Assembly: GCA_030706635.1 (NCBI GenBank)
Contig: JAUZOD010000001.1
Coordinates: 124,001-188,000 of the forward strand
Reading direction: 5' to 3'
From: Bacteroidota bacterium
GTDB taxonomy: Bacteria; Bacteroidota; Bacteroidia; Chitinophagales; Chitinophagaceae
Length of the DNA: 64,000 nucleotides
The notes under the pieces were generated by a model, which was given only the letters and a program-made list of their open reading frames with translations, had not been told where the DNA came from and did no database searches. A program made the translations under genes and the position numbers. This document shows positions 17,574 through 44,053 of the stretch, piece by piece; the first letter of the stretch is position 1, and the number at the start of each line of letters is the position of its first letter.

Positions 17574-17585
17574 ATTTTAAATCTT

Positions 17586-18946: not shown

Positions 18947-18954
18947 CAAAACTA
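18947..18954 (-). promoter_or_regulatory. -7 box of the efflux operon
   Basis: On the minus strand TAGTTTTG matches TAnnTTTG exactly, 17 bases before the TolC ATG at 18929. A good -33 element is not evident, which would suit a promoter that needs an activator. Confidence 0.5.
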
Positions 18955-22854: not shown

Positions 22855-23015
22855 ATGCTTTTCCATTTTGGGCGCTGAAACAATTGTTTTCCAAATTACA
22901 AGAACATCGGAATCAGCAATCCGGCCTGCCAGTGACGGCTTTTTTCCTTAGTTTTAAAACTAAATTTAATTTCTTATTCTGGAAAAAGAGGCTTTAATTT
23001 TTTATACCATGCTGA

Positions 23016-24119
23016 ATGAAAGCATCTAATCAACTCGGGTCTGCACTTACGCTGTCGAGATACAGCCTGCTTTCTATGTTGCGCAGTCCGACCTCAGTCG
23101 TGTTTTCCCTGCTTTTTCCCATCATTTTTATCGTGGTATTCGGTTCTATGGTTGGGGAGCAGATGCCGGTGATCAAGCTCGGTGTGGCGCGGACTTGTGA
23201 CACAACAAATTTAATTTTCGGGGCCATCACGAAAATATCGTCCATCAAACTGATCCGGAATCTTTCTCCGGAGGAACAATCGGATGCGTTGAAAAAAGGA
23301 ACACTTACGGCCGTATTAAATATTTCTCCCGAAAAAGACAGATCACCCGGCAGCAGTTATCACATCAACCTCTTTTCTGCCGGAGCAACGCCTCCAACAT
23401 TGTCTTTACTCAAAACCACTGTACAGGAAACCATCCGACAGATCAATGAGCATCTCTTCCCGAACAATTCCAGCATAGCATCGCTGGACATGACCCAGAC
23501 GCCCGGGCGTGTTTACCGGCAGATTGATTTCATCCTGCCTGGTCAGCTGGGGTTTTCATTGCTGATGGCCGGTGTTTTCGGATCTTCCTTTCTCCTGTTT
23601 CATCTGCGTCAAAGCCTGGTATTAAAGCGACTAAGGGTAACCGCCATCCGCAAAGGCAGCATCATCGGCGGGGAGATGCTGAGCCGTCTTTTTTTTCATG
23701 TGATCGCCTTTATCATTATGGTCGCGCTGGGTTATTATGCGTTCCGGTTCACGCTCGTCAACGGCCTGAATACTTTTCTCGAAATGCTGCTGTTCTCTCT
23801 GTTCGGTCTGGGCATTTTTATGGGAACAGGTTTTATCATCAGCGGGGTGGTGCAGAACGAGAGCTCGATTACGCCAGTTGCCAATACCATTACACTGCCC
23901 CAGATCCTCTTATGCGGATTATTCTTCCCCATAGAAAACTACCCGCACTGGCTTCAGAGTTTTTGCAACCTGCTCCCCCTCACTTTTTTTGTGGACGGAC
24001 TACGTAAGATCGCTTTTGAAGGGACGCCGATATGGCAATTGCAGCGGGAACTTGCTGGTCTTATGATATGGACTGTTGTTATCGGCTTATGGTCGATCAG
24101 GTCTTTTAAATGGGAGTAA
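23016..24119 (+). CDS. ABC-2 type transporter permease
   Basis: 367 residues with one N-terminal membrane helix (FSLLFPIIFIVVFGSMV), a soluble periplasmic domain of about 130 residues, and five more membrane helices after residue 175. This is the YhgE/DrrB-like ABC-2 permease layout. FCNLLPLTFFVDGLRKIAFEG is the usual end motif. The family exports drugs, lipids or polysaccharides together with an ATPase. No ATPase gene is adjacent; the neighbours are a glycosidase and the phosphonate operon end. It may use an ATPase encoded elsewhere. Confidence 0.85.
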   Translation: MKASNQLGSALTLSRYSLLSMLRSPTSVVFSLLFPIIFIVVFGSMVGEQMPVIKLGVARTCDTTNLIFGAITKISSIKLIRNLSPEEQSDALKKGTLTAVLNISPEKDRSPGSSYHINLFSAGATPPTLSLLKTTVQETIRQINEHLFPNNSSIASLDMTQTPGRVYRQIDFILPGQLGFSLLMAGVFGSSFLLFHLRQSLVLKRLRVTAIRKGSIIGGEMLSRLFFHVIAFIIMVALGYYAFRFTLVNGLNTFLEMLLFSLFGLGIFMGTGFIISGVVQNESSITPVANTITLPQILLCGLFFPIENYPHWLQSFCNLLPLTFFVDGLRKIAFEGTPIWQLQRELAGLMIWTVVIGLWSIRSFKWE

Positions 24120-24151
24120 CAGAGCTTTAAAAACGGTTCGTGGCCAGGTCA

Positions 24152-26959
24152 TCAGGTCAATGCTCTTTCCAAAAAATCTACAGGCAATTCATGCGTTGGA
24201 TTAAATGCGGGACCGACAGCATAGTTCAACAGAGAATTTTTCAACTGCCGGGCAGCCGGCCGGCTATCTGCATCTGTATCCAGGTCCAGCGCACAGATCA
24301 ATAATTTCCCCTTTCCGACGCGCGTTTCAAAAATAAGCCCGAGTTTATAGTTGCGTTCATAATTGTCGATCATCTGAACAATGGGTCGATAGTCTGCCGG
24401 CGTTTCGTTGAGAATAATGCACTTGGATCTGTCAGACACGTCTCCCCAATCATGTTTTTTTTCATCCCCGGCAATTTCATAAGAATCCATGGCGGTAAAC
24501 CTTCCCAGAATATCCGCCCATTGCCAGTCGCTGTGCGACTCCGTTGGAAATCCTGATAACGCGGGATGTTCCGGATCACACAGAATACTCAATGTGCCGA
24601 TCTGGTTAAAAAGGCGAAGGTTCCAAAAAGCGGGCATGAACGAACCGGGTATGGCGTTTTTTCCTTTAGTTACCGGGGGAAACTGTCTGGTCGCGTCCGG
24701 GCCCAGCATCTCTCTTTTTATTTCGAACAGGCCCTGTTTCGGAGAGGAAAATAAAACGACGCGGGCCCCGTTTGAAAGCGCCTGGCGCGTCCCGGGATCG
24801 AAGACATTGGTTACATGCACTTCATGATTTTGAACAACCGGCCTGATTTCAGGATATACCCAAATATTCCAATGATTGGTATTGCCACCCGCACAAAGAC
24901 TAACTATAAGTTGCGCCGGTTCTGATATATCATTTAAGGACACTTTAATTTCATCCCATTTATTCAATTTCCCTGTTGTAATTGTTTTCTTCGGGAAAGC
25001 TCCGCTATATAATAATTTATCTTTTGTGCTTTCGATTTTCCATTGTGCGCCGGTAAAAATATCACCGGGGCCGTAATGAGCAATTTCTGCTTTCGCCACG
25101 AAAGTTTCCGTGCTGGTGTAAATTCTCCGGGGCATACGCAGTAAACAAACCGTTGGCCCGCAGAAACGCCGGAATGCCTCCGGCGTGATCAGCCCTTTGG
25201 AATCCCAGAACGCGTCCAGCCATCCGATGATGGCGCATCCTTCACCGGGAAAATCCCGCGCCTCCACGATTTGAAATCCGCCGTGGGGATAGGTTCGCAG
25301 GCAACCCTCAATTTCTTCTTTGTAGAGAGATACCGCAAATTTTCCGCTTTCCAGGGCAAATACCTTGTTCTGATCCAACATCTCATGCTCAGCAAGCGAT
25401 CGCTGAAAGCGTTCATAGTTATGCGGTTTAAGCGTTCCGGTAAATTTGGGTAACTGGCCGAAATCGGGATAGCTGGACCATTGACCGACTTCGTGCGCCA
25501 GGGTGGGCAGATCGAGTGCCTGATATTTACGAACGTCAGGATCATCTATCAATGACCACCTGTCCCAATCGGTGCGGGGACCTTTTATACCGCGCTGACC
25601 AATCTCTGTTCCTCTTTCGGCGTAGTCGCCATTTGCTCTTACGTCTCCGTTCTGACAGCGATACAATCTCCGGCCGTCCTTCTTTCTTCCTTTGTTAACC
25701 AATACCTCCATCGGGCCACCGGATTCATTGCCCATGGCCATAAAAGCAAAAGAAGGGTGATTTCCATAACTGTCCAGAATAAGGTAGAGTTCATCCAGCA
25801 GGAATTGATCGCGCTTCTCATCTTCTCCGAATTCCGGAGCGCCCATTGACCAAAATGGAATCTCAATCTGCAGGAAGATGCCCAAGTCATCTGCAGCCTG
25901 GAAAGCGGCTTCGGGCGGACACCAGGAATTAAAGCGCATAAAATTAAATCCGTACGATTGAACGATCTGCAAAACACGCGTCCATGATTTCTTATCCATC
26001 GGTGGATATCCCGTCAACGGATATACGCATTCATTTACGGGTCCTCTCATCATCACCGGCCGGCCATTGATCCTGAACTGACCCTTCTCCGCGGTCATCA
26101 TACTGAGACCATAAGAAATCGTTTTTCTATCCGTATAACGAGTTGAATGAAGCACGAGGGTCAGGCTGTTTATCCGGGGAGAAAATTCATCCCAGGGAGT
26201 GCCGGCCTGAAAAGGGATATTAAACAGACCGCCCCCGACCGGTATGGAAATAGTTTGTTGTAACAGGCCGGCCTGTTGTGGCTCTCCGGTGGCATTGCCA
26301 ATCTTTACCTGGAGATGACCGGCGTAAACCTGAACATCACGGATCCATAGCAGGTCTGTTGCCCGCCAGGTTATTTTTCCGATGATTCCGTTCCAATTCC
26401 CCTGTGTATCATCGGTGATGGCAAAACCCCATTTCCCTATGGCTAATTTATAGCTGTTGTCTATCCGTATGCTCAGGGTGTGTTTGCCCGGAGAAACGAT
26501 TCCCAGATCATAGAGATGAGGAGCAGATAGGCTCGATTGCGAGCCATAGAGTTTTCCATCGAGCCATACCGAAGATGCCCAGTGACATCTTTCCAGGAAC
26601 AACTCCAACCGTTTCCCATTCCATGTGTCGGGAACCTCTACTATTCTTTGATACCAGGCCGCTCCTTCATACTTTATGGACCGTGTTAACCGCTCCACTT
26701 CAGGTATGGTTGTTTTTACACCAAACCCGCGTTGTTCACAGGAACCCGGTAGTTGGATATTATCCGTTAGCGCTTGATCAAACCATCTATCCGCTTCGCC
26801 ATTGTTCCCGGGATCAAGGCGGAATTTCCATTGACCGGCTAAGGATTGCTCATTGGGTGTTAGCAGTTCTGAATTATTCGCCAGGCTGGCTCCTGGCAAG
26901 AGAGAGAAACCAATGGCCGAAGCCATTATATTCTGCAAAAAGTCACGCCTTGAGTTCAA
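24152..26959 (-). CDS. GH2-family glycosidase, Tat-type export signal, TTG start
   Basis: 935 residues from TTG at 26959. The TTG is chosen because the twin-arginine signal NSRRDFLQ needs it; the next ATG (26926) would remove it. Domains: jelly-roll sugar-binding domain (about 40-190), immunoglobulin-like domain (200-300), TIM barrel (300-600) with the GH2 acid/base in AMGNESGG near residue 410, then C-terminal beta domains. Family activities include beta-galactosidase, beta-glucuronidase and beta-mannosidase. The start overlaps the stop of the HD oxygenase gene as TTGA, so the gene is translationally coupled and belongs to the phosphonate operon. Acting on the glycan part of a phosphonate-bearing substrate is an inference. 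Confidence 0.85.
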   Translation of the reverse strand: MNSRRDFLQNIMASAIGFSLLPGASLANNSELLTPNEQSLAGQWKFRLDPGNNGEADRWFDQALTDNIQLPGSCEQRGFGVKTTIPEVERLTRSIKYEGAAWYQRIVEVPDTWNGKRLELFLERCHWASSVWLDGKLYGSQSSLSAPHLYDLGIVSPGKHTLSIRIDNSYKLAIGKWGFAITDDTQGNWNGIIGKITWRATDLLWIRDVQVYAGHLQVKIGNATGEPQQAGLLQQTISIPVGGGLFNIPFQAGTPWDEFSPRINSLTLVLHSTRYTDRKTISYGLSMMTAEKGQFRINGRPVMMRGPVNECVYPLTGYPPMDKKSWTRVLQIVQSYGFNFMRFNSWCPPEAAFQAADDLGIFLQIEIPFWSMGAPEFGEDEKRDQFLLDELYLILDSYGNHPSFAFMAMGNESGGPMEVLVNKGRKKDGRRLYRCQNGDVRANGDYAERGTEIGQRGIKGPRTDWDRWSLIDDPDVRKYQALDLPTLAHEVGQWSSYPDFGQLPKFTGTLKPHNYERFQRSLAEHEMLDQNKVFALESGKFAVSLYKEEIEGCLRTYPHGGFQIVEARDFPGEGCAIIGWLDAFWDSKGLITPEAFRRFCGPTVCLLRMPRRIYTSTETFVAKAEIAHYGPGDIFTGAQWKIESTKDKLLYSGAFPKKTITTGKLNKWDEIKVSLNDISEPAQLIVSLCAGGNTNHWNIWVYPEIRPVVQNHEVHVTNVFDPGTRQALSNGARVVLFSSPKQGLFEIKREMLGPDATRQFPPVTKGKNAIPGSFMPAFWNLRLFNQIGTLSILCDPEHPALSGFPTESHSDWQWADILGRFTAMDSYEIAGDEKKHDWGDVSDRSKCIILNETPADYRPIVQMIDNYERNYKLGLIFETRVGKGKLLICALDLDTDADSRPAARQLKNSLLNYAVGPAFNPTHELPVDFLERALT

Positions 26960-27543
26960 CTGGAGGCATTGCGTTCCTTTAAATAATTCTCCACGTCTTT
27001 GATATATTCCTGCATCGGCACCATTTTCAGGTCGCGTTCTTTCGCGCCTTCATCCCAGAATCTCACCCGGATGATGTCTTCAAAATAAGGTTGCTTTTCG
27101 AATTCAGCTGCTTCCGCCTCATTCATCGGGCCGCCCTGATATTCCAGTGTTTTCAGGCTCGCCAGAGATAGTTTTTCCTTATATCCCGGTTTCGCAGTCA
27201 CTAAATATCGTTTGGCATCAACATGTTTATCCACCACGGCGCAGATCCTGTCAGAAAATCCGCGGGATGCCAGGTATTTGGCGCCAATGCCCTCATGGTT
27301 CACAACACCAAAATTACCCATAGCTTCAGTCTTTTGCTGGTGACGAAGCAAATGACCGATATCATGGAGGAATGCGCCAAGCACCAGCTCAACATCCGCT
27401 CCTTCACGCTGGGCCTGCATAGCGCACTGCACCATATGGGAAGTCTGGGAGACCGGCTCGCCATCATAATCCTCATCTCCGTATTTTTCAAATAAAAAGA
27501 GCAGGTCTTTGCTTATCTGGCTGGCGTCTAATTCTTTCTCCAT
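26956..27543 (-). CDS. PhnZ-type HD-domain diiron oxygenase for hydroxy-aminoalkylphosphonates
   Basis: 195 residues. All iron ligands of the PhnZ/TmpB group can be placed: His36, His60-Asp61 (FLHDIGH), His83, His107 and Asp164. Tyr26 and Glu29 (YDGEP) match the substrate-gating Tyr24 and Glu27 of PhnZ with the same spacing. PhnZ cleaves (R)-1-hydroxy-2-aminoethylphosphonate with oxygen to glycine and phosphate. The usual partner hydroxylase (PhnY* or TmpA) is not in this window. The gene follows PhnW by 74 bases and overlaps the GH2 start by four bases. Residue numbers of the reference enzyme are from memory. Substrate might differ in N-methylation. Confidence 0.85.
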   Translation of the reverse strand: MEKELDASQISKDLLFLFEKYGDEDYDGEPVSQTSHMVQCAMQAQREGADVELVLGAFLHDIGHLLRHQQKTEAMGNFGVVNHEGIGAKYLASRGFSDRICAVVDKHVDAKRYLVTAKPGYKEKLSLASLKTLEYQGGPMNEAEAAEFEKQPYFEDIIRVRFWDEGAKERDLKMVPMQEYIKDVENYLKERNASS

Positions 27544-27617
27544 ATAATGATATATTTTAAGTTCTGCCGAATTGTAAAAATAAATATCTCTTCGTCACAA
27601 AAATATAATATTTACGA

Positions 27618-28739
27618 TTACGCTGTTACCGTCAGGGAAATCTTCTCTTCGGCCAGCACTTCCCTTATGGCAACTATCAGCGCCGACACATCATCCGGGA
27701 ATATTTGCCCGATATTGCCAATACGGAAAGCATTGGCTTTACTCAGTTTTCCGGGATAGATCACAAACCCGCGGTCATTCAGTTTATTGTAGAAGCGGTC
27801 GAAATTGAAATGTGGATTATCCGGATAAAGAAAAGAGGTAATGATATAACCCTGAATCTCCTTATTGAGGTATTGCGAAAATCCCAGCTCTTTCATTCCT
27901 TTATCCAAAACCATTTTATTGGTTCTGTACCGTTTTTCCCTGGCACTGACCCCTCCTTCCGCTTCGAGCTCTTTCAGCGCCTGACGAAACGCCATAATGC
28001 TTAGGGTTGGCGGCGTGAAGCGGAACTGACCGTTGGTTTCAAGCCCCTTCCACTGATCATAGAGATCGAGGCTCAGACTCCTGGCCTGTCCTTTTGCTTT
28101 TGCCAGTTCAGCGTTTTTGCACAGCACAAAAGCAAATCCTGGAACGCCTTCAATACATTTGTTTGATGATGAAACCAGAAAATCAATCTGGCTTTCTTTT
28201 ATATCCAATTCAATGCCACCAAAACTGCTCATCGCATCTACAATGAATACGGCATTCTGTTTCCTGCACACCGCCCCGATCTCTGCGATCGGATTGAACA
28301 GACCGGTTGTGGTTTCACTGTGAATACAGGCTACATGGGTAATCTCCGGATGCGCCTGCAGATATTTCAGGCTGGCTTCGGGTGTAACGATCTCATCTTC
28401 TTCAAAACGCAATACCTGGTGGTTCAACTGATGAATGACGGCCATCTTCACGATGCGCTCCCCATAAGCTCCATTGACGAGCACCAGCAATGTATCATTC
28501 TTCTTAATTACGCTGCTGACCACGCTTTCTATTCCGAATGTCCCCGAGCCCTGCATAATCACGCACTCATATCCTTCTTCTTTCGATATATGGCCGATGC
28601 GCATCAATTCACTGCCGATCTCTTTGACGGCGTTCACAAATTCGTGATCCCTGGATCCGACATCCTCCAGCATGGCTTGTTTTACCGTTTCGGAAGTGGT
28701 CAGCGGCCCCGGCGTAAAAAGCAGTTTTCTTACTCGCAT
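27618..28739 (-). CDS. phnW: 2-aminoethylphosphonate:pyruvate transaminase
   Basis: 373 residues, the usual PhnW length. LLFTPGPLTTSETVKQAM and DVGSRDHEF are the characteristic opening blocks. Lys194 in SSSNKCIEG is the PLP lysine at the same number as in Salmonella PhnW, and Asp168 in VDAMSSFGG binds the cofactor nitrogen. The enzyme moves the amino group of 2-aminoethylphosphonate (AEP) to pyruvate, giving phosphonoacetaldehyde and alanine in the cytoplasm. The next steps, PhnY and PhnA, are encoded upstream in the same operon. No phosphonatase PhnX is seen, so the oxidative route is used. Confidence 0.95.
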   Translation of the reverse strand: MRVRKLLFTPGPLTTSETVKQAMLEDVGSRDHEFVNAVKEIGSELMRIGHISKEEGYECVIMQGSGTFGIESVVSSVIKKNDTLLVLVNGAYGERIVKMAVIHQLNHQVLRFEEDEIVTPEASLKYLQAHPEITHVACIHSETTTGLFNPIAEIGAVCRKQNAVFIVDAMSSFGGIELDIKESQIDFLVSSSNKCIEGVPGFAFVLCKNAELAKAKGQARSLSLDLYDQWKGLETNGQFRFTPPTLSIMAFRQALKELEAEGGVSAREKRYRTNKMVLDKGMKELGFSQYLNKEIQGYIITSFLYPDNPHFNFDRFYNKLNDRGFVIYPGKLSKANAFRIGNIGQIFPDDVSALIVAIREVLAEEKISLTVTA

Positions 28740-28791
28740 GGTTTTGTTTTTATGATGCTCCGTTAAAAATAGAATTTTTCATTTCAAAAAA

Positions 28792-30009
28792 TCATCCGCT
28801 CACTTTTGTGGATCGCGCCAGGGCACATCTGTCCAGCCATGCCGGACTGAAAGGATCAATCTGACCGAAACGTGCAATATCAAAATACGAAAAATCGAAA
28901 GGGTTAGGTCTTCCGGCAGCCAATTCCGCAAAGGCCAGTCCTACACCACCCGAAACGGATATGCCTGCTCCGACACAACCCGTAGCAAGCAGTAAATGAT
29001 GAACGCCTGGTGGTACGCCCATCGTTAAATTATTATCCGGCGTATAACCTGAAAATCCGGCTACATAAAATTTAATCCCAACATCATATACCGACGGGAA
29101 AAAGCGGGCGAGTTTGTCAATTACTTCCGTGAGGTCAGCCATGCCTTTGTCCGGGCTGAAAGAGAAATCGCTGATGTCTGCCGGAATGTTTTTGGGTGAA
29201 GCAGTGAATGATTTTTTTTCCCGGATTCCGAATAAGAGACTGCCACCTTCGGGTCTTGCATAAGCCTGTGCGTCCGGAAGCAAAACGATGGGAGAATTTA
29301 CCGGAAAGATGTCTTTCTTCTCCGTGATCCAGTACTGACTTCTTACGGGCGCCATCGGTAACCCGATACCCGCCTGTGCGGCCAGCAGGGGCGACCATGC
29401 GCCGGCGGCGATCACAACGGTGTCTGCCCGGATACTGCCTTCAGTAGTGACGACCCCGACGGCGGTATTGTTTTCCATCAAAATCTTCTCCACTTCAACA
29501 CCCTGACGAAATTCAGCTCCCTGCAACTTTGCACAGCGACTGAAAAACGTGCCCAGCAGGTAGGGATCACAGTAAGCTTCTCCGGGCAGAAAAGCAATTT
29601 TCCTGGCCTCTTCTGTTCTTAACCAGGGAGATAATTGTTGGGCTTTTTCACCTGAAATATATTCAGCCGGTTGACCGAATTCACGGGCAATTTTTATTAA
29701 TTCTGTGAGCGAGGCTTCGTTGGATTCACTGGCGGCCACGTGCATCACGCCCACGTATTTCATATCCATGCTTTCCCCCAGCAGTTTCTCCATCTCCGGA
29801 ATTACACGGTAGGTTTCCAGCGATAAGGGAACGAAATGTTTTTTTGTCCTTATTTTCGTAACCAGTGCAGCCGCGCGGCTCGTGGCTGAATTGCACAATT
29901 CGTTTCTTTCCAGAACAATCACTTTCTTATCGGGGTTGTTCCGGGTATAATAGTAGGCAATGGCACATCCGAAAATACCACCCCCAACGATGAGCACATC
30001 GGCTTTCAT
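28792..30009 (-). CDS. FAD-dependent amine oxidoreductase, phosphonate-operon type
   Basis: 405 residues of the DAO (glycine/sarcosine oxidase-like) superfamily. FAD binding is shown by VGGGIFGCAIAYYY at the start and the acidic end of the second strand (VIVLERNE). AAGAWSPLLA and FSGYTPDNNLTMG are further family blocks, and the C-terminal GCVGAGISVSGGVG closes the cofactor site. FAD oxidoreductases are known companions of phosphonate operons; PbfD oxidises N-methyl-AEP and related amines. I infer a role in bringing N-alkylated AEP into the pathway. Its start overlaps the previous stop as ATGA. Confidence 0.8.
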   Translation of the reverse strand: MKADVLIVGGGIFGCAIAYYYTRNNPDKKVIVLERNELCNSATSRAAALVTKIRTKKHFVPLSLETYRVIPEMEKLLGESMDMKYVGVMHVAASESNEASLTELIKIAREFGQPAEYISGEKAQQLSPWLRTEEARKIAFLPGEAYCDPYLLGTFFSRCAKLQGAEFRQGVEVEKILMENNTAVGVVTTEGSIRADTVVIAAGAWSPLLAAQAGIGLPMAPVRSQYWITEKKDIFPVNSPIVLLPDAQAYARPEGGSLLFGIREKKSFTASPKNIPADISDFSFSPDKGMADLTEVIDKLARFFPSVYDVGIKFYVAGFSGYTPDNNLTMGVPPGVHHLLLATGCVGAGISVSGGVGLAFAELAAGRPNPFDFSYFDIARFGQIDPFSPAWLDRCALARSTKVSG

Positions 30010-31088
30010 TTCATAACGCTGTTTACCGGTTCTCCAACAGGATGGTTTGCTGTAAAGTGAAATCCCAGGAGCATGGCCATGGTTTGAGCATACTGATCCT
30101 GGTAGATCTGACCCTGGGTTTTCTGTTCTCCCGTTGCCGGTGTGTCGGGGCCCATGACCATGAGGTAGGTCTCATCGGAATGCGGGGCTTTTTGTCCGTG
30201 TGAAGTCCACTGGCTTCCTTCTCCCCGGCCATGGTCGGGGAAAATGAGCAGGGTCGTTTGTCCTTTATAAAACGGATCCTGTTGCAGATAGTTCCACAGA
30301 TCGCTGATCATGATATCGGTCTTATTCGCCCCGTCCAGATAAAAATCATATCGGCCTCCGTGAGCATACTCATCGGTATCACCAAAATCAATGTAAACCA
30401 CTTTGGGATGTTTGGCCATGATATAAGCCTTTGACATCAGATAGGTGTCTGCATCAGGTCTTTCGCCGGGCCCAAAGATATCCGGAGAATAATGCTGAAA
30501 GCGGTTGGCTTCTTTTTGCAAGCTGGTAAGATCGTCGCCTTTCACATCTTCCCCATCGATATTCACCAGCATGCCATTCCGGTCGCGGTTGAGTATACGC
30601 GCCACCGCATCCCAGGAAGCAAAGCTGACCACTTTTCCTTCATAGCCCTTTTTCTTATTGATGAATTCCAATACATTCTCGTTGGGGTTATCGGGATAGT
30701 CGTTGGAATTGACAGCCGGATCAAAGTAACCAGTCTGTACTTCACTGCGTCCCGGATAAGAAAACCAGAATGTATTCCGGACATTCACTTTATTGCCGAG
30801 GTCCCTGTTGCCATACAATTGCCCATACTGTGCGATGTGCTGCCATACAAAAGGCATGAGTTTTTCCCGCCGGGTCTGTTCATCCGGACCCCAGAATTTT
30901 TGCACGTATCTGGCGGAATCTATGGAATTGTATTTTTTCGAGAATATCAGGCTGGAATCCGCTCCGCGGAAAAGTTCATGCCAGCGAAATCCATCCATGG
31001 AAATCATGATGATATTCTTCGTTTTGAAAGGCTGTGCGGATACAGCAGTCACCAAAAACAACGCGGCGACAATGATCAATGCTTTCAT
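30006..31088 (-). CDS. Secreted alkaline-phosphatase-superfamily hydrolase
   Basis: 360 residues with a signal peptide cut near residue 18 (VSAQP). Metal ligands of the superfamily are visible: Asp32 in ISMDGF, Asp/His in DTDEYAHGG, and Asp-His in FPDHGRGEG. The nucleophile is expected in FWFSYPGRSEVQTG (105-118). Similar proteins in Bacteroidota are labelled phosphoglyceromutase or type I phosphodiesterase without proof. It lies inside the phosphonate operon, 19 bases after PhnY and overlapping the FAD gene, so a phosphoester or phosphonate-ester substrate in the periplasm is likely. Freeing AEP from a glycan or lipid ester is a reasonable inference. Confidence 0.8.
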   Translation of the reverse strand: MKALIIVAALFLVTAVSAQPFKTKNIIMISMDGFRWHELFRGADSSLIFSKKYNSIDSARYVQKFWGPDEQTRREKLMPFVWQHIAQYGQLYGNRDLGNKVNVRNTFWFSYPGRSEVQTGYFDPAVNSNDYPDNPNENVLEFINKKKGYEGKVVSFASWDAVARILNRDRNGMLVNIDGEDVKGDDLTSLQKEANRFQHYSPDIFGPGERPDADTYLMSKAYIMAKHPKVVYIDFGDTDEYAHGGRYDFYLDGANKTDIMISDLWNYLQQDPFYKGQTTLLIFPDHGRGEGSQWTSHGQKAPHSDETYLMVMGPDTPATGEQKTQGQIYQDQYAQTMAMLLGFHFTANHPVGEPVNSVMK

Positions 31089-31107
31089 GCCAGAGGAAAT
31101 TTTATGT

Positions 31108-32589
31108 TTACCAGGCCATTGAAAATGTCTTCACGAAAGTGAAACATTTAATAGCTTCTATCACCCCTTCTTTAATGCCCAGGCCTGAATCTTTAATTCC
31201 GCCAAAGGGGGAACTCTCAATACGATAGCCCGGCACTTCGTTAATATTTACGGTTCCAACCTTAAGTTCTTTTACAAACCGGATAGCGTGTTCCATATTT
31301 TTGGTCACCACGCCGGAGGATAAACCGAAATCTGTGGAGTTGGATAAAGCAATAGCATCATCAATATCTTTAAATCCAAGAATGGGAGCCAGCGGACCAA
31401 AAGATTCCTGCATGACCATCTGGGCATCCCGGGGAACATCAACGATTACGGTCGGCTCCAGCAAGGCGCCCTGCCGTTTACCTCCCATCAGTACTTTGGC
31501 ACCCTGTTCCACCGCTTTCTTAACAACCGATTCCAGGTAGATCGCAGATTGTTCATCAATCACAGTACCCACTTTTGTTTCCGGGTCTGCGGGATCCCCG
31601 CAGGTATATTCTTTTGTTTTTTCCAATAAGCGTTTCGTAAATACTTCCCGGATACTGTCCTGCACCAGGATACGCTTAACCGCTGTGCAGCGCTGACCTG
31701 AGTTCCGGTAGGCACCTTCTGCGGCAAGTGTTACGGCCAGATCCATGTCTGCATCTTCTAAAATGATCAGCGGATCGTTACCGCCCAGTTCGAGGATCAC
31801 TTTTTTATAGCCCGCCGTTTCTGCTATTCTTTTACCCACGGCTACGCTGCCGGTAAATGATACGAGATCAATACGCGGATCTTTCACCAAAATCTCCGCC
31901 ACTTCTTTTGTAGGTCCCAGCAAAACGCTTAACATGTAGTGTGGCAATCCCGCCTGATATAATAACTCAGCCAATTTAATAGCCGTTAAAGGTGTTTTCT
32001 CTGAAGGCTTCAAAATAACCGGGGTTCCGGCGGCAATAGCCGGAGCGATTTTGTGAACAACCTGGTTCAGGGGATGATTGAACGGGGTGATGGCAACCGC
32101 CAATTTCAGCGGTTCCCGCAGGGTGAATATTTTTCTTGCTTTGCCGCTGGGAGAAATATCGCATGAAAAGATCTGTCCGTCATCTTTTAAACATTCGATG
32201 GCGGCGAACATCAATACATCATGTGCGCGGCCCGTTTCATACCGGCCTTCTTTTATTGCCAGGCCGGATTCCGCGCTGATCGTCTGCGCAAATTCTTCCT
32301 TCCGCTCCATCAGCAGCTGTCTGGTTTTCTCCAGGATGCTGTAGCGCTCATATCTCGATAATCGGGGTCCGCCTTTCAATGCCGTACGGATGGCCAGTTC
32401 GGTATGGGATGCATTGACCAGTTGGACCGTTCCCACGATGCGGCGGTCATAAGGACTGTAAACTGTAAGGATATTTTCAGAACTGACCGGCTTTCCATCC
32501 ACCCAGCAATTCATGTTCATCGCCGCCGCATCATATCCGTTTTCTGCGCCAGCCTTTTTTGAAGGCTGGGCATCTGTTGCTATACTCAT
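31108..32589 (-). CDS. phnY: Phosphonoacetaldehyde dehydrogenase
   Basis: 493 residues of the aldehyde dehydrogenase superfamily. Cys301 in NSGQRCTAVKR is the nucleophile, with the Arg-Cys-Thr-Ala-Val-Lys-Arg form typical of phosphonoacetaldehyde dehydrogenase. Glu267 in LELGGNDP is the general base and FTGSVAVG (245-252) binds NAD. The N-terminal 23 residues before MNMNCWVDG look like a variable extension. The enzyme oxidises phosphonoacetaldehyde from PhnW to phosphonoacetate for PhnA. It starts nine bases after the phnA stop. Assignment is helped strongly by the neighbours. Confidence 0.93.
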   Translation of the reverse strand: MSIATDAQPSKKAGAENGYDAAAMNMNCWVDGKPVSSENILTVYSPYDRRIVGTVQLVNASHTELAIRTALKGGPRLSRYERYSILEKTRQLLMERKEEFAQTISAESGLAIKEGRYETGRAHDVLMFAAIECLKDDGQIFSCDISPSGKARKIFTLREPLKLAVAITPFNHPLNQVVHKIAPAIAAGTPVILKPSEKTPLTAIKLAELLYQAGLPHYMLSVLLGPTKEVAEILVKDPRIDLVSFTGSVAVGKRIAETAGYKKVILELGGNDPLIILEDADMDLAVTLAAEGAYRNSGQRCTAVKRILVQDSIREVFTKRLLEKTKEYTCGDPADPETKVGTVIDEQSAIYLESVVKKAVEQGAKVLMGGKRQGALLEPTVIVDVPRDAQMVMQESFGPLAPILGFKDIDDAIALSNSTDFGLSSGVVTKNMEHAIRFVKELKVGTVNINEVPGYRIESSPFGGIKDSGLGIKEGVIEAIKCFTFVKTFSMAW

Positions 32590-32598
32590 ACTCCGTGT

Positions 32599-33840
32599 TT
32601 AATTTGTTCCGTTAATAGCAAAATCAAATACGTCAAAATTTCTTGGATCTCCCGCGGCCTTGAGCTTATAGATTTTGTTCAGGGGATGAGAAATAACCAG
32701 GGGAACCATTTCTTCATATCTTCCGCCGTGCGATCGCAGGGTGCCGTCGAGCGCTTTCAGATCGTGATGGGCTGCTGTTTTTCCCACCACCACGTCGCGC
32801 CCGGACAAAACCATAAGATCGCCGGTCCGGTCCGCAGGTTGCTCCAATAAACGGCAACCGGTTTCCCTGTCATATACTTCGGTGATACCCGGCTGAAAAG
32901 CCAGCCATTTTTTCACCTCATCGATTCTGGAAAGATCACTCAGATGAACCACCACATAAGAGCCGAGGGCGCCATGGTGCTTCACATAGGGGTCTGTGAT
33001 CGGACAAATGACCCGGAAGCCATCACCAAACTTTTCCTTCAGCATGGTTTCCACAAACAATACATTCGGCGACCCGTCTGCTTTTATTTTTGCATTCATG
33101 CCATGATCAGCCGTGGCGCCTATGATCGCACCCAGGGCCAGCATTTTTCCCAATTCCTTATCCTGCGCTTCGTAAAACGCCAGGGATGCCTCCGTATCGG
33201 GGGCGTATGTGTGCTGCATATAATCCGTGAGTGACAGATAAAGAAAATCCGCCAATCCTTTTTCGATTAGGGCAACACCGGCTCTCAGGACAAATAAACT
33301 GGCATCGGCGCTGTAAATAGCAGGTGTTTTGTGGCCAACAACGGCTTCAACATCACCGATACCATGTGTTTCCGGCTTTGCCTGGTTTGCTTTTTCAGCC
33401 GAGAAGGCAATGCCCTTTAGTTTATAGGAAAGAATATCCCTCAGTTTTTCTTTAGCCGTAACAACGGCCACTTTCCTGCCGGCATCTGCAGCCGCGGCCA
33501 GAATGGTATCCACCCGGAGGTATTCCGATGAGTTCATCATCACCTCCTGGTCTTTGGCCACATCGTAAAAGAAATTGCCGCAAATCCCATGCACTGCCGG
33601 AGAAACACCGGTTACGATGGAAGAATTATTCACGTTGGTGAACGACGGCAGCGCATCCCGTGCCATGCCCCGGTAGCCCGTTTTAGCCATCTGTTTCAGA
33701 TTAGGCATCCTGTCGAAAGCCATCGTATTGTCTAAATATTCATCTGCCGATCCATCCATGCATATCACCACGATGGGTTTTGCCGCGGGCTGATATGTTA
33801 TTCCATTTACCGAGAATGCCTTCGTCGAAATATTTGTCAT
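32599..33840 (-). CDS. phnA: Phosphonoacetate hydrolase
   Basis: 413 residues from the ATG at 33840; an upstream start (33888) is rejected because numbering from 33840 places Asp29 (ICMDGSADEY) and the nucleophile Thr68 (PSFTNVNN) exactly as in the characterised Sinorhizobium enzyme. Further zinc ligands appear as Asp206/His210, Asp244-His245 (ADHGMNAK) and His370 (SHGG). It splits phosphonoacetate into acetate and phosphate using two zinc ions. No signal peptide is present, so it is cytoplasmic. It follows the SusD gene by 67 bases on the same strand. Confidence 0.96.
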   Translation of the reverse strand: MTNISTKAFSVNGITYQPAAKPIVVICMDGSADEYLDNTMAFDRMPNLKQMAKTGYRGMARDALPSFTNVNNSSIVTGVSPAVHGICGNFFYDVAKDQEVMMNSSEYLRVDTILAAAADAGRKVAVVTAKEKLRDILSYKLKGIAFSAEKANQAKPETHGIGDVEAVVGHKTPAIYSADASLFVLRAGVALIEKGLADFLYLSLTDYMQHTYAPDTEASLAFYEAQDKELGKMLALGAIIGATADHGMNAKIKADGSPNVLFVETMLKEKFGDGFRVICPITDPYVKHHGALGSYVVVHLSDLSRIDEVKKWLAFQPGITEVYDRETGCRLLEQPADRTGDLMVLSGRDVVVGKTAAHHDLKALDGTLRSHGGRYEEMVPLVISHPLNKIYKLKAAGDPRNFDVFDFAINGTN

Positions 33841-33907
33841 TACCGTTCTAAAATTATGATATATCTTCCTCATCGTGAAGTTAAACAAACTTCATCGCAG
33901 GCATCGC

Positions 33908-35509
33908 CTATTTAACCAGCCACATATCCTGATTGATATCATCGTTTCCTCCATATTGCGACTGCAATGCGGCCTGCAGGTTCGTGCCATTTGCCGTGAT
34001 CTCGTTTTGAGGATACTGCCATCTTCTGGGTATTACTCCGCCGTTGCCCGTGCCAGGACCTTGATCGAAAGTGGGTACCCCCGTTCTGCGCCACTGGTAG
34101 TAAGCCTGATAGCCAGAGTTCCTTGCATAAGCCAGATATTTCTGCAACAGGATCTGGGCCAACCCTGTTGGATTGTCTCCCGCATATTTTACCGCCGGCT
34201 GATTGAAATACGTACTGTAATAAAAGTGAACAGAATAAGGGATTTCAGCACCTGAGCCCGCCTGCAGCGTAACCGTGTTAACGCCATCCTCGATACCATA
34301 AAAGGCAAACTGGGAAGTAATTCCGTTCACATACCATTGACTGGCATCACCCGCTATCCATCCGCGGTTAATAGCTTCCGCAACACAAAAACAAACTTCG
34401 GGATAGCTGAGGATGTAGGTGGGTTCTCCCGCCAGGTTAGAAGGATTATAGAAATGATTCCTGTTGAACAGCGACACTTTAGAATCAGCAATCCCGGACT
34501 GGATCAGGGCATTCATCGTACTCAGATCCATCCCAGATGGCGCTCCAACGAAAGACTGGTAGGAGGTATCACTAAAACCCAATCCCCGGGCCGGCTCACC
34601 CAATACCATGCAGCGCAGGTCATGAAGAGAACTCAAATTGTTTTCGAGGGTTGCAGCCAGGTTTATCCGCGTCTGGTTATTCCCGAGATTGGTAAAGTTG
34701 TCAGGGTAATAATTATAACTGTTATTATAAACATACTGCAGGTTATCTGTATTGCTGGTAAAAATTGGATAGGTGGTCGGATTATTAAATATCGTAGCGA
34801 ATTGCTGGGGAATATTCAAGTCAGGATTATCCGCTGCGCGTTTACTTAATTCGATCAGCACGCGTAGCTTATAACTGTTCACTACCTTCTGCCATTGAAT
34901 CAGCGCATCCCTGGGAGATAAGGCGTTGCTGAGCCTTTCCGCATAATAAAAATCACCGCTAAATTCAAGAAAGCCGTTTTGTATCAGGCCGCCGAGCAGG
35001 GTGTTTGCAGAATCCAGCCAAAGAAGAGACTGCTTAAAAACATCCTTTTGGGCATCATATTTAGGCGTGACGTTGCCCAGTCCCTGCAGTGCTTCCGTCA
35101 TGGGCACGTCTCCCACTTTTTCACTCATAGAGACAAAGAAAAATGCGCGGAAAAATAAACCCAGAGCGTGATAGGGATTGTTATCCGTTCCAGCCAATCG
35201 CCTGGCTTCTGCTTCCATGGCCAGGGTATTGTTCAAATCGCCATAATTTAAAGATGCACTACCTGTCCAGTACTGGTTATCCCCATAATAAACATAGTTG
35301 GAACAATAATCCTGACAAGCCTTATCTGAAGTACTTCCCGGATAAACAACGAGATCGGCCAGAATGGTTTTGAGCACGATCCCCGGGGGCACTTTACCCG
35401 GTACCGGCTGGTTTCCGTTTTGCGAATAATCACTAAACTTCTTCGTACAACCGGAAGCTGCCAAAGCAACCAGAAGTATCTGTATGATGGGAGATTTAAT
35501 CAATTTCAT
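33908..35509 (-). CDS. SusD/RagB-family surface lipoprotein
   Basis: 533 residues with lipobox AASGC (Cys21). The SusD-like features are the start CTKKFSDYSQNGNQP, the TPR-rich helical part (AMEAEARRLAGTDNNPYHALG), the AERLSNALSPRD region and the C-terminal YYQWRRTGVPTFDQGPG block typical of the SusD_2 branch. SusD forms the lid of the SusC transporter and picks up large substrates at the cell surface. It lies 42 bases downstream of the SusC gene and 67 bases upstream of phnA, all on one strand, which ties the transporter to phosphonate breakdown. Confidence 0.95.
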   Translation of the reverse strand: MKLIKSPIIQILLVALAASGCTKKFSDYSQNGNQPVPGKVPPGIVLKTILADLVVYPGSTSDKACQDYCSNYVYYGDNQYWTGSASLNYGDLNNTLAMEAEARRLAGTDNNPYHALGLFFRAFFFVSMSEKVGDVPMTEALQGLGNVTPKYDAQKDVFKQSLLWLDSANTLLGGLIQNGFLEFSGDFYYAERLSNALSPRDALIQWQKVVNSYKLRVLIELSKRAADNPDLNIPQQFATIFNNPTTYPIFTSNTDNLQYVYNNSYNYYPDNFTNLGNNQTRINLAATLENNLSSLHDLRCMVLGEPARGLGFSDTSYQSFVGAPSGMDLSTMNALIQSGIADSKVSLFNRNHFYNPSNLAGEPTYILSYPEVCFCVAEAINRGWIAGDASQWYVNGITSQFAFYGIEDGVNTVTLQAGSGAEIPYSVHFYYSTYFNQPAVKYAGDNPTGLAQILLQKYLAYARNSGYQAYYQWRRTGVPTFDQGPGTGNGGVIPRRWQYPQNEITANGTNLQAALQSQYGGNDDINQDMWLVK

Positions 35510-35551
35510 ATAAATATTTTTACTATTTAATAATAAATTAAAAAATAGAAT

Positions 35552-38500
35552 TTAGAATACCACGTTTATGTTAAAGCCATAGGTTCTCGTAGTGGGCGTT
35601 TGCAGGGTATGTTCCCTGCCAATTCCATTAAACTGGTCTCTGCCGGGAAACTGATCCACGTCAATATCATGAAAATCCTTGTGAAAGAAATAGAGCAGGT
35701 TCCTGCCAACCAGTGAGAAATCAATTCTGGTAATGAAAGATTTTTCAAGCAAGCGCCCCGGCAAGGAATAGGTCAATACCACTTCGCGGAGTTTTGCATA
35801 CGTTTTGCTGGTACTGGTGTGTTCTGCATCGTCGTAGAAATCACTCACATAGTCCTGCATCCAATACGTAGCGACTGTATTGGGTGTATAAGTAAGCGAT
35901 TTCCCATTGGTGATTACGCCGGTTTTCGGATCATAAGCAATATTGCCGGAACCGCCAACAACCTGCCTTTCACCCCCGCTGATGATGGGTTTGCCATTTT
36001 CCACCGCCCCGTTATAACCCGGATCACCCCAATGGGCTGCTTCATAGGCACGTGCTTTACCTATATCACCCGTAACCGTATTCAACCCACGGCCGCCCTC
36101 TGTTAATTTACGCTTTACATAATCCCCGATCACACCACCCACCATGCCATCAAACTGAAAAGAAAGCGTGATGTTTTTATAGGCTAAACTATTATGAATT
36201 CCCCAAGCCCAGTCCGGATCGCCGTGTCCGAATTTCTGGGGTTTGGGAAGATAGATCGGATAGCCTGATTCATCCAGAATGGATATGCCGTCCGGCGTTT
36301 TTGCGTGTTCACTGGCAAAAAACTGATCCACCCGGTCTCCGACATGATAGGGATATCCCGTACCATTGGATAATTCCGTGGCACCCCCGGCAAATGCAGA
36401 AAATACTTCTTTATAGGTAGACCAGTTAACCAATACGTTCCAGCTAAAATTCTTCCGGAGAATAGGCGTACCCTGCAAAGAAATTTCTCCCCCGGTTCTT
36501 TTCGTCGTAAAACCGTTCGTTATAAAACCAGTCAATCCGCTGGTCTCTGATATCGGCTGCGAGGAAATAACGGGTCCATCTTTGTATTGGAAATAAGTGG
36601 CGCTCAATCCCAGGCGGTTTTTCAGGAAGCGGATGTCCGTTCCAAATTCAAAATTACTCCTGGACGAGGGCTTGATGCTTTTATTAATAGAATTCAGAGG
36701 AGCTGTAAGTCCGATCTGGTTATTGTACGTATAGACACTGTAATAAAATGGATTAGCCAGCCCATAGGTTGGACCATCATACGGCGTATAATAAGTAAAG
36801 CCATAACCCAGAGGACTCGCAGCACCGAGTGCGGAGAAGGCGGGACCTATCAACGGTGTTGTTCCTCCATCCTTTACGTTAGCAAAGCTGGTTCTTACTT
36901 TCAGAAAAGAGATTGCTTTCGGCATGGTCAGATAGTCTGATATAGCTGAACTGAATGACACCGAAGGATAGAAAAAGGAATTGTTTCCAACCGGCAGCGC
37001 CGAAGTCTTATCCATCCTGCCTGTCGTAGCAATGGTAAAATAATTCTTGTAAGTAATATCTGCTGAATAATACGCACTCAACATCAACAGATCTGACCCG
37101 TAATTAAAAGATCGGACGGGAAGGGTGGAATTCGCAAAAGTGTACACTTCCGGAACCGTCAGCTGATTTGTGCTGACAAAGCTGGATCCGTACTTCATAC
37201 TACGAGAAGTTCCTCCCGCATTAGCGGTGATAGATATTCCGGTGTTGCCAATATTTTCTTTATTAAAATTAAATATCAGGTCGGTATTGTTTTCCCAAAG
37301 ATCGCGACGGTCTTCCCGATAATTGCCATGGTTGTGTTCATCACCATAAGGATGTGCAGACCAAGGCTCCTTTTCGGTCCTTAAAACATCGTAGGAGGTG
37401 ACATTGGAGCGAAGCAATACATTGAAATTTTTATTGAACCGGTAGGTGAAGGCGACCCAGCCATAGAGATCGTTTTTGTAATGACTTCTCAGCCATTCGT
37501 AACTCATGAAATAGGGATTCTGATAACGCTTATACTCGACAAACATGGACTGAATACCTTCCTTGCCCGGTTGCCAGATGGCCTTAATCTTGGGATCTTC
37601 CACATTCCAGTCAGCGCCGGTCCAAATGTCTATATCATAAATAAGGCTGTTTGGACCATAATTCACATCCGGAATATTGGGTGTAAACTGACGGTTATAA
37701 TTGAGATTCGCTTCAATTTTAAATTTGCTGGTTACATCATAACTTTCAATGAGGTTTATATTCACGGTGTTCAATCCGGTATTGGGCGTAATGCCGTTTT
37801 GATAGGACTGAGATACCGACATCCGCAGGTTGGAGCGATCGGTAACGGAGGAAAAGCTAATATTATTCTTGGTCAAAAAACCGGGTTTCAAGAAGTTGTC
37901 CAGATTATTAGCTCCACGCGAAACCCAGGGTGTCGCCTGGATATGACTCTGATGGACCTGGCCATCTCCTGAAGTATAATTAAAATACTGGGTTGGGTCG
38001 TACGGACCGTCAAACTGCGGCAGTTTTAAGCCGGCATCCAATTTGGGGCCCCACACATCATAATCTTCATCATTGGTACCATCAACAGAGTTCCCGTTAC
38101 TATTATAATCACCAAAGGCATATTGTTGTTTTTCACCACCTCCGTATTGATTCTGCACCTTAGGATTGGCAATAAACCCTTTCTCGATCTGGTTACTGCT
38201 GTTGAACTCAACCGTAAATCCCTTTTTGTTCTTTGCGCCCCTTTTGGTAGTGATCAGAATGGCACCATTGATACCCCGGCTTCCGTAAAGGGCCGCGGCT
38301 GTGGCGCCTTTCAATACCGTATAGGTTTCGATATCATCCGGGCTGATATTCCAGGTATCTGAATTGATGGGAATACCATCTACAATATAGAAATTGAGCG
38401 GCGAACCACGCAACAGTACGGTGGGTGTTGACAACAGCTCCTGGTTGATGCCTATATTCAGACCGGCTACTTTGCCCACCAGGCCATTGATCGGGTTGGG

Positions 38501-38923
38501 TTCCCGGGCCTTCAGCAATTCTGAACCCTTAACTTCCTGAACCGAATACCCAATGCGCTTGGTCTCCTTGCGGATACCCAAGGCCGTTACGATCACTTCG
38601 TTGAGATCCTTGGCCTGGGCCACTACGCTGATGACAATATTCTGCATTTCCTTTCCTATGGTATATTCCTGGGTGGTAATACCCACGCCGGAAATCGTGA
38701 GCACATCTCCGGACTTTGCCCTAATGGAAAATCTTCCGTCAATGCCAGTGGATGTGCCCGCTTTCGATCTGTTGACCAGGATCGTGGCTCCCGGAATCGG
38801 AGACTGATCCGAAACAGAGAGAATGCGGCCGGTAATCACATTCTGAGCCATCGTCAGGAATGGAACTAATAAAACCCACAAGATTAATTTAAACCGGAGA
38901 GCTCCGGCACTAGTGTGATTCAT
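35552..38923 (-). CDS. SusC/RagA-family TonB-dependent transporter
   Basis: 1123 residues. Signal peptide (1-26), carboxypeptidase-like regulatory domain (about 29-110: ITGRILSVSDQSPIPGATIL), the SusC signature DLNEVIVTALGIRKETKRIG, a plug domain with VLKGATAAALYGSRGINGAI, and a 22-strand outer-membrane barrel ending in an aromatic residue (TYGFNINVVF). It imports substrates too large for porins, using TonB energy. It heads the phosphonate operon. Peptides, glycans and some cofactors are known substrates of SusC-type transporters; a phosphonate-bearing substrate is my inference from the operon. Confidence 0.96.
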   Translation of the reverse strand: MNHTSAGALRFKLILWVLLVPFLTMAQNVITGRILSVSDQSPIPGATILVNRSKAGTSTGIDGRFSIRAKSGDVLTISGVGITTQEYTIGKEMQNIVISVVAQAKDLNEVIVTALGIRKETKRIGYSVQEVKGSELLKAREPNPINGLVGKVAGLNIGINQELLSTPTVLLRGSPLNFYIVDGIPINSDTWNISPDDIETYTVLKGATAAALYGSRGINGAILITTKRGAKNKKGFTVEFNSSNQIEKGFIANPKVQNQYGGGEKQQYAFGDYNSNGNSVDGTNDEDYDVWGPKLDAGLKLPQFDGPYDPTQYFNYTSGDGQVHQSHIQATPWVSRGANNLDNFLKPGFLTKNNISFSSVTDRSNLRMSVSQSYQNGITPNTGLNTVNINLIESYDVTSKFKIEANLNYNRQFTPNIPDVNYGPNSLIYDIDIWTGADWNVEDPKIKAIWQPGKEGIQSMFVEYKRYQNPYFMSYEWLRSHYKNDLYGWVAFTYRFNKNFNVLLRSNVTSYDVLRTEKEPWSAHPYGDEHNHGNYREDRRDLWENNTDLIFNFNKENIGNTGISITANAGGTSRSMKYGSSFVSTNQLTVPEVYTFANSTLPVRSFNYGSDLLMLSAYYSADITYKNYFTIATTGRMDKTSALPVGNNSFFYPSVSFSSAISDYLTMPKAISFLKVRTSFANVKDGGTTPLIGPAFSALGAASPLGYGFTYYTPYDGPTYGLANPFYYSVYTYNNQIGLTAPLNSINKSIKPSSRSNFEFGTDIRFLKNRLGLSATYFQYKDGPVISSQPISETSGLTGFITNGFTTKRTGGEISLQGTPILRKNFSWNVLVNWSTYKEVFSAFAGGATELSNGTGYPYHVGDRVDQFFASEHAKTPDGISILDESGYPIYLPKPQKFGHGDPDWAWGIHNSLAYKNITLSFQFDGMVGGVIGDYVKRKLTEGGRGLNTVTGDIGKARAYEAAHWGDPGYNGAVENGKPIISGGERQVVGGSGNIAYDPKTGVITNGKSLTYTPNTVATYWMQDYVSDFYDDAEHTSTSKTYAKLREVVLTYSLPGRLLEKSFITRIDFSLVGRNLLYFFHKDFHDIDVDQFPGRDQFNGIGREHTLQTPTTRTYGFNINVVF

Positions 38924-39255
38924 AAAGAGAAGTTTTGGTTTGTCCTTTTAAAAATGGAAAATAAGGGTGAAATAAAAATATATAAGTTTCTGTTAAAATC
39001 AACAAATACTAAACAAATAGTTATCCACATTCTGAAAGGATAAAATTAGGAATTCGGGCTGTAATCCCTTCTATTGCTGGAATTATTAATGAATTTGTCA
39101 TAATAAATTGACAATAGTTTAATGCAGGTGCCCGGCATGCTGAAATTACTATATTTAGTATTTGTAAACACGTGACGGGCAGGGAATAAGATGGGATTTA
39201 GCCGGATACCCCCGGCTGCCTGCCCCGACAGCATTCATATATTGGTAACAGGTGT
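38924..39255. other. Control region upstream of SusC
   Basis: 332 bases, AT-rich near SusC, no gene. It holds direct and inverted AACAAATA-type repeats (39001-39019 and 39154-39165) and, close to the regulator gene stop, a hairpin AGCCGG (39200-39205)/CCGGCT (39212-39217) nested in GGGCAGG (39177)/CCTGCCC (39219) that may end regulator transcription. Confidence 0.6.
39002..39165. repeat. Inverted 12-base repeats with direct octamers before SusC
   Basis: ACAAATACTAAA at 39002-39013 is repeated as its exact inverse TTTAGTATTTGT at 39154-39165, 140 bases apart. Within the left copy AACAAATA occurs twice (39001-39008, 39012-39019), offset by 11 bases, one helical turn. Read on the minus strand these give TATTTGTT, close to promoter -7 elements. 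They could be operator copies for the adjacent XRE regulator or alternative promoters. Confidence 0.6.
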
Positions 39256-42862: not shown

Positions 42863-42900
42863 ACCAAAAACCAGAACCTGAGATTTAAAATTTATTTCAC

Positions 42901-44049: not shown

Positions 44050-44053
44050 AATT

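Follow-up and report, generated by a model that had tools for sequence, protein, structure and literature searches.

A candidate phosphonate utilisation locus with a SusC/SusD-type outer-membrane importer in a member of the Chitinophagaceae

A locus for phosphonate utilisation, in which ester-bound aminophosphonate is imported across the outer membrane by SusC/SusD (SusCD), is, at a probability that we put at roughly 60%, the best explanation for a gene cluster found in a Bacteroidota bacterium (Bacteroidia; Chitinophagales; Chitinophagaceae). The cluster lies within a 64,000-nucleotide stretch of assembly GCA_030706635.1 (contig JAUZOD010000001.1, positions 124,001-188,000), referred to here as the window, and all coordinates are window positions. 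It consists of nine minus-strand open reading frames (ORFs) in a run, encoding SusC, SusD, PhnA, PhnY, a secreted alkaline-phosphatase-superfamily hydrolase, a flavin adenine dinucleotide (FAD) enzyme, PhnW, an HD-domain protein, and a glycoside hydrolase of family GH2. Gaps within the run are at most 74 bases, and 4-base overlaps occur at the secreted hydrolase/FAD enzyme and HD/GH2 junctions. This order, with its gaps and overlaps, had been proposed by an earlier inspection of the letters and ORFs (the sequence-only reading), and all of it was reproduced in our ORF list.

The outer-membrane part of the cluster is formed by a SusC TonB-dependent transporter (35552-38923; TIGR04056, 415 bits against a cut-off of 368) and a SusD-like_2 lipoprotein (33908-35509; PF12771, 184 bits against 27) with a lipobox recognized by eye. 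These are followed by PhnA, a phosphonoacetate hydrolase (32599-33888; TIGR02335, 488 bits against 407.6), and PhnY, a phosphonoacetaldehyde dehydrogenase (31108-32589; TIGR03250, 666 bits against 635.7), while PhnW, a 2-aminoethylphosphonate (AEP)-pyruvate transaminase, is found further downstream (27618-28739; TIGR02326, 480 bits against 400.8). All three score above their curated NCBIfam cut-offs, which upholds the earlier calls and completes the PhnWYA pathway. PhnA additionally aligns over nearly its full length to the solved phosphonoacetate hydrolase 1EI6 (E = 2.7e-112); its ORF starts with TTG, and in-frame ATGs are present at 33873 (the first) and 33840. Upstream of SusC, two further genes on the same strand had gone unmentioned in the sequence-only reading: an HTH-cupin regulator (39256-39837; HTH_3 and Cupin_2 domains) and a DUF5690 protein of the major facilitator superfamily (MFS; 39867-41195; PF18943, 511.8 bits), a candidate inner-membrane importer of aminophosphonates. 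The 332-base gap between the HTH-cupin gene and SusC (38924-39255) is a possible promoter region.

The reactions of PhnW, PhnY, and PhnA are known from the named families, and part of the biogenic phosphonate is known to be bound in lipids and glycans. In the proposed mechanism, SusCD would bring in a molecule with an ester-bound aminophosphonate, either a phosphonolipid head-group fragment or a phosphonylated oligosaccharide, whose P-O-C ester would be cleaved in the periplasm by the secreted hydrolase. Once free, the aminophosphonate would pass the inner membrane through the DUF5690 carrier. Inside, PhnW would turn AEP into phosphonoacetaldehyde, and the FAD enzyme would probably do so with N-methylated forms. 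From phosphonoacetaldehyde, PhnY would yield phosphonoacetate, which PhnA would split into acetate and phosphate, while the HD enzyme would deal with 1-hydroxy-AEP and the HTH-cupin protein would act as regulator.

The sequence-only reading had also pointed to the lack of a carbon-phosphorus (C-P) lyase and of PhnX, and this holds for the whole genome: PhnJ of the C-P lyase gave 0 matches, and all matches to PhnX and to PepM were far below the cut-off. Thus, no other C-P cleavage route was found among these candidates, nor any sign of PepM-based phosphonate synthesis. Both C-P lyase or PhnX as an alternative route and the recycling of self-made phosphonate were rejected on these grounds.

As the sequence-only reading had suggested, synteny between SusCD and the phn genes was searched for among relatives, and it was found to be conserved. 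Of 394 family genomes, 31 contained PhnA at E <= 1e-60. SusCD was present within 9 kb of PhnA at 13 of these 31 loci, and at 12 of the 24 loci with at least 8 kb of flank on each side. For comparison, SusCD was seen in 2 of 40 stretches taken from related genomes as controls (20 from the class and 20 from the family, at hand-picked rather than random positions). Neither a SusD of the window's type nor DUF5690 was detected in any of the 40, and the one stretch with a phn-type label, that of a PhnY-like gene, was in the family set. At the 24 well-flanked loci, SusCD and DUF5690 occurred together 11 times, SusCD only once, DUF5690 only twice, and neither 10 times (Fisher p = 6e-4); since the loci are related by descent, such p-values are only indicative. 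The labels are BLAST best matches to representatives rather than curated calls, with the PhnX-like and FAD labels being the loosest, and genomes were assigned to the 31 family loci by hand.

A broader set contained 65 PhnA loci, de-duplicated (8 of 73 removed) from the matches listed rather than from all that exist; 3 of them are from Balneolaceae. Another 18 loci (L094-L107 and L109-L112), from a listing of at least 70 and belonging to Verrucomicrobia, Planctomycetes, Proteobacteria, and one Rhodothermaceae, were left out, and these carried no SusC or SusD labels. By the 9-kb rule, SusCD was present at 27 of the 65 listed loci and not at 38. At three of the 27 (L056, L059, and L076), SusCD lies on the opposite strand and PhnY is missing, so these may be unrelated; conversely, L067 (at a contig end), L083, and L089 carry a SusD or SusCD that escaped the rule. 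Many of the loci without SusCD comprise little beyond the regulator, PhnA, and PhnY. Among the named carriers are Pedobacter, Mucilaginibacter, Chitinophaga, Ilyomonas limi (L053), Segetibacter koreensis (L055), Limnovirga soli (L063), and the flavobacterium Sinomicrobium.

The same front end, consisting of SusCD, the secreted hydrolase, the HD and FAD enzymes, and DUF5690, was recovered when DUF5690 or the hydrolase was used as the anchor, with a PhnX-like gene replacing PhnYA. That one front end is combined with two candidate back ends speaks more strongly than any other single point for a role of the front end in phosphonate use, provided that the PhnX-like proteins act on phosphonates. The lysine at the PhnX position, presumably catalytic, is invariant in all eight aligned sequences.

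A quick tree of SusD proteins placed 27 of the 28 phn-linked SusDs included, the window SusD among them, in one clade (SH-aLRT 99), which excludes 13 of the 15 other SusDs of the same genome. The PhnA-anchored sequences were required to exceed 30% identity, and the tree does not contain the RagB-type SusDs that occur at seven loci, the near-copies from L093 and L132, or the divergent linked SusDs of L300 and L313. As the background is a single genome, the tree is supportive rather than conclusive. The RagB-type SusDs suggest that a second type of SusCD was recruited at some loci. One of the two paralogues from the source genome that fall in the clade (L250, 7353-16614, on C73) stands directly before a phospholipase C (PF04185 and PLipase_C_C) in a SusCD pair that is also followed by a GH43-like gene, a neighbourhood that speaks for the explanation favoured here; the other lies near a GH92 gene on the opposite strand. 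Upstream of the former pair, genes resembling an extracytoplasmic function (ECF) sigma/anti-sigma pair were recognized by eye.

The secreted hydrolase (30006-31088) scores 22.8 bits against PF01663, just below the cut-off of 23, and has a signal-peptide-like N-terminus by eye. Its AlphaFold model (pLDDT 88.2) was matched by Foldseek to sulfatases, lipoteichoic acid synthases (LtaS), NPP nucleotide phosphodiesterases, and the phosphatase PafA. Residues D32, S110, D239, H243, D285, H286, and H297, which we take to be the metal ligands and nucleophile, are invariant in an alignment of 16 sequences, so that fold and residue pattern together place the protein in the alkaline phosphatase superfamily. 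A profile search of 395 genomes gave 29 matches in 28 genomes, and all 29 neighbourhoods were examined, 22 of them newly fetched. All 12 matches above 500 bits lie near phn-type genes and DUF5690, and 11 of the 12 near SusCD. Seven of these had gone into the profile itself; the other five, which are new, have phn-type genes and DUF5690 in every case and SusCD in four.

Among the 65 listed PhnA loci, the hydrolase is found near PhnA in 12, and within 9 kb in 10 of the 27 that bear SusCD. Other secreted partners are a metallophosphoesterase (6 loci), a PF01663 protein (5), and a PF04185 phosphoesterase (3). As these partners are by family cutters of phosphate esters, SusCD is suggested to import bound phosphonate, and their recurrence favours esterified aminophosphonates as the substrate. 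Triplets of SusC, SusD, and hydrolase were also found without phosphonate labels nearby (L301, 9164-15214; L313, 4253-10246), and these three genes may travel together as a unit for other esters too.

The importer that the sequence-only reading lacked is probably the neighbouring DUF5690 protein. Its AlphaFold model (pLDDT 91.6) shows a major-facilitator fold, for which Foldseek ranked NorA first and returned many G6PT/SLC37A4 entries as well as GlpT, with other MFS proteins scoring similarly. When aligned to Escherichia coli GlpT with hhalign, 98 columns were matched at 37% identity with an E-value of 0.013, but at a probability of only 3.4%. The alignment spans a Y..RKxF segment and pairs the conserved RK segments of the two proteins (in DUF5690, R35 is invariant and K36 nearly so); in GlpT, we take this segment to hold the phosphate-binding arginine. 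The DUF5690 profile gave 0 sequence matches in the PDB, so that at the level of sequence the protein is at most a possible member of the organophosphate antiporter (OPA) family, and no paper mentioning the family was found in the open-licence literature.

DUF5690 is encoded near PhnA in 31 of the 65 listed loci, and the HTH-cupin regulator in 38. In a class-wide search of 295 genomes, 42 scored above the DUF5690 cut-off and 53 places were listed, of which 32, hand-chosen to spread over genera, were examined. Phosphonate-type labels were present in 22 of these 32 neighbourhoods; among the control stretches, none of the 20 from the class and one of the 20 from the family had such a label. A complete SusCD was found in five, each with the secreted hydrolase, HD enzyme, FAD enzyme, and regulator, and in each of them the hydrolase directly follows SusD (in two, it lies beyond the 9-kb count). 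A PhnX-like gene occurs in four of the five and PhnYA in none. A further neighbourhood, L231, contains a SusC cut by the contig end together with SusD, PF04185-type, HD, FAD, and PhnX-like genes, and in L230 and L237 DUF5690 stands directly beside PhnX and PhnW, the PhnX of L230 scoring above the cut-off.

Some observations on DUF5690 stand apart from these counts. In two loci from Pedosphaera (Verrucomicrobia; L099 and L107), DUF5690 labels at 38-41% lie about 5 kb from PhnA-PhnY, which suggests that the association extends outside the Bacteroidota. A PHP-domain gene resembling histidinol phosphatase is present near DUF5690 in 8 of the 32 neighbourhoods (L209, L212-L216, L219, and L221), with the family model applied to L212 only. 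What appears to be a decayed DUF5690 paralogue lies in the source genome (contig C78, about 23744-24167), in two short pieces and with a TAG in frame. Head-to-head with DUF5690 in the window, genes for a glutamine-synthetase-like protein, an iron alcohol dehydrogenase, and an aldehyde dehydrogenase run divergently (41504-45418). These may handle amine by-products; a glutamine-synthetase label occurs near PhnA in 1 of the 65 listed loci, namely this one.

The remaining two enzymes would widen the range of substrates. The HD-domain protein (26956-27543) has PhnZ as its nearest solved structure (4MLM, E = 1.1e-50), followed by TmpB (9.4e-33). At 205 bits it falls just below the TIGR03276 cut-off of 214.6, so that the PhnZ-type oxygenase of the sequence-only reading is kept here as a PhnZ-like protein only. 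The FAD enzyme (28792-30009; DAO, 197 bits) has dimethylglycine dehydrogenase and the sarcosine and glycine oxidases as its nearest solved relatives. Among the 25 matches listed for it no NCBIfam cut-off was reached, and the related model TIGR03329 gave 31 bits against a cut-off of 632.8. By analogy with the amine oxidoreductases PbfC and PbfD, it perhaps acts on N-methyl-AEP. Together with PhnW, these putative activities give an intracellular toolkit that fits a mixture of aminophosphonates, with the HD enzyme for 1-hydroxy-AEP.

Several results weigh against a SusCD system for ester-bound aminophosphonate. SusCD is absent within 9 kb at 18 of the 31 family PhnA loci (7 of the 31 are short-flanked), and SusCD is thus not needed for the use of PhnYA. 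Similarly, 10 of the 32 DUF5690 neighbourhoods carry no phosphonate label and 27 no complete SusCD, and the importer role of DUF5690 is weakened by the lack of a PDB match and the low probability of its alignment to GlpT. Two PhnX-like proteins that were scanned fall below the TIGR03351 cut-off of 218.9 (189.4 for L208 and 215 for L232), making their C-P activity a guess. The 17 weaker hydrolase matches include only two near SusCD and one near phn labels, indicating that the wider hydrolase family has other roles. In the window itself, the hydrolase does not lie directly behind SusD, and no computation made here showed ester specificity.

The sequence-only reading had the cell take up a phosphonate-decorated glycan or lipid, which GH2 and the periplasmic hydrolase would trim. 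Its link between SusCD and phosphonate catabolism recurs in relatives, so that the lack of conservation which would have refuted it did not arise; the narrower version in which the substrate has to be a glycan, which leaned on GH2, we consider unlikely. The GH2 gene (24152-26959; PF02837, 50.3 bits against 28; PF02836, 25.5 against 21; NF049890, 735 bits against 1500) encodes a protein with a twin-arginine-like signal by eye, and the overlap with the HD gene speaks for its inclusion. Moreover, five Mucilaginibacter loci have a GH29 alpha-L-fucosidase gene placed between SusD and PhnA (L044, L045, L048, L050, and L051; family confirmed by Pfam for L050). A glycan source is also on record: polysaccharides of Acanthamoeba castellanii yielded the first isolated 1-hydroxy-AEP, and the phosphonoglycan of this amoeba contains AEP as well (PMC8154272); this pair of compounds matches PhnW plus a PhnZ-like enzyme. 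However, GH2 occurs near PhnA in only 1 of the 65 listed loci, its own, and GH29 in 7, whereas the secreted partners that recur are of the phosphoesterase type. Among 195 family genomes, the best GH2 homologue (63%, genome G514) lies in a genome of the same genus without a PhnA match and has no phn labels nearby. GH2 was accordingly rejected as a core component and is probably a local addition. The distribution of GH29 and GH2 would fit a substrate that differs by lineage, being carried on a glycan in some and present as a lipid or another kind of ester in the rest; of the conserved carbohydrate-active enzymes that would mark a polysaccharide utilisation locus, the count covered these two families. 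Elsewhere in the window, beyond an ABC-2 permease gene on the opposite strand, a GH39-like protein is encoded (21379-22866; 24.9 bits against a cut-off of 26).

A second possibility, which we regard as improbable, is that SusCD imports small aminophosphonates in free form when they are very scarce, with the secreted enzyme serving as a general phosphatase under shared control. The catabolic enzymes do act on free AEP-type compounds, and the hydrolase accompanies fewer than half of the SusCD-bearing listed PhnA loci under the 9-kb rule. Free phosphonates, however, presumably enter through porins (PMC10574752), and the position of the hydrolase right behind SusD in all five SusCD-bearing DUF5690-anchored loci speaks against this reading; its fold matches, which span sulfatases to PafA, are not decisive. 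Finally, the chance or historical neighbourhood of an unrelated SusCD unit and a phn operon is very improbable and was rejected: SusD-like_2 is common (at least 640 matches in about 160 Mb from 31 family genomes, with the best 40 candidates taken in some), but a same-strand copy with its near end within 5 kb upstream of PhnA was found at 11 of 31 loci against about 0.3 predicted (the p-value being indicative only), the excess over control stretches points the same way, and the link was recovered from three anchors.

The interval between SusD and PhnA contains no minus-strand terminator-like site and one weak sigma-70-like site (9/12); the sigma-70 scan returned 28 sites against 30.3 expected, which is chance density. 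The Bacteroidota-type promoter pattern gave two matches against 2.4 expected, neither at the locus and none in 38924-39255.

The locus extends known phosphorus-scavenging SusCD loci. The sequence-only reading knew of no described SusCD-type locus for phosphonates, which is not quite right: one sentence (section 19) of a 2020 paper on Flavobacterium states that SusCD-type PusCD loci co-localize with phosphonate-degrading enzymes (PMC8115612), so that this kind of locus was already foreshadowed. The logic of the whole locus is shared with Pus loci, in which a SusCD-type pair is accompanied by phosphoesterases, enzymes of phosphonate degradation, and transporters for organophosphorus compounds (PMC8115612); here, too, the pair adjoins phosphorus-releasing enzymes. 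In contrast, the main text of that paper names neither PhnA, PhnW, nor AEP, and it reports low-phosphate induction by proteomics (PMC8115612), whereas the present locus has the complete PhnWYA pathway, a linked HTH-cupin regulator, and relatives in other Bacteroidota families. No fuller account of a SusCD-phosphonate locus was found in the accessible parts of the open-licence literature, including PMC8812569, PMC7029141, PMC10752948, and PMC11892949.

The PhnWYA hydrolytic AEP pathway has been described with PhnW, PhnY, PhnA, and a FAD amine oxidoreductase (PMC10590968, PMC12366243); PbfC and PbfD act on N-methyl-AEP (PMC10590968), and phnY-phnA has been noted in Bacteroidetes (PMC12366243). 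The word TonB is absent from the main texts of both papers, and SusCD, the secreted hydrolase, and DUF5690 are additions here. AepP, a GlpT-related AEP permease, is likewise an MFS carrier encoded beside PhnWAY or PhnWX genes, also in one Bacteroidetes species (PMC8316502), and DUF5690 resembles it in overall fold and has a GlpT-like RK segment. The identity between AepP and GlpT is 27.75% (PMC8316502), whereas the DUF5690 profile matched no PDB sequence; the two carriers are likened by description. The oxidative PhnY*-PhnZ pathway resembles the present locus in its PhnZ-like protein and differs in that no PhnY*-type hydroxylase was found among the locus genes scanned, a genome-wide search not having been made.

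The phosphonate transporters covered by a review are in the main ATP-binding cassette (ABC) and facilitator systems, which take up small molecules in free form (PMC10574752). More tentatively, at a little short of even odds, we propose that several Bacteroidota families share a dedicated outer-membrane system for esterified phosphonates (phosphonolipids or phosphonoglycans), built from SusCD, a dedicated subfamily of secreted phosphonate-ester hydrolases, and DUF5690 as a new family of inner-membrane aminophosphonate carriers, with interchangeable PhnYA and PhnX-like back ends. If true, SusCD joined to C-P cleavage would give these bacteria a route to the bound phosphonate pool, and the genes could serve as a metagenome marker of its use. 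DUF5690 and the secreted hydrolase subfamily would then have testable functions and are the most testable of the new elements.

Two other features of the window were recorded. A fluoride riboswitch (RF01734, 47.9 bits) lies at 57966-58036, and efflux genes of the AcrB-HlyD-OEP type follow one another on the minus strand at 13200-19121.

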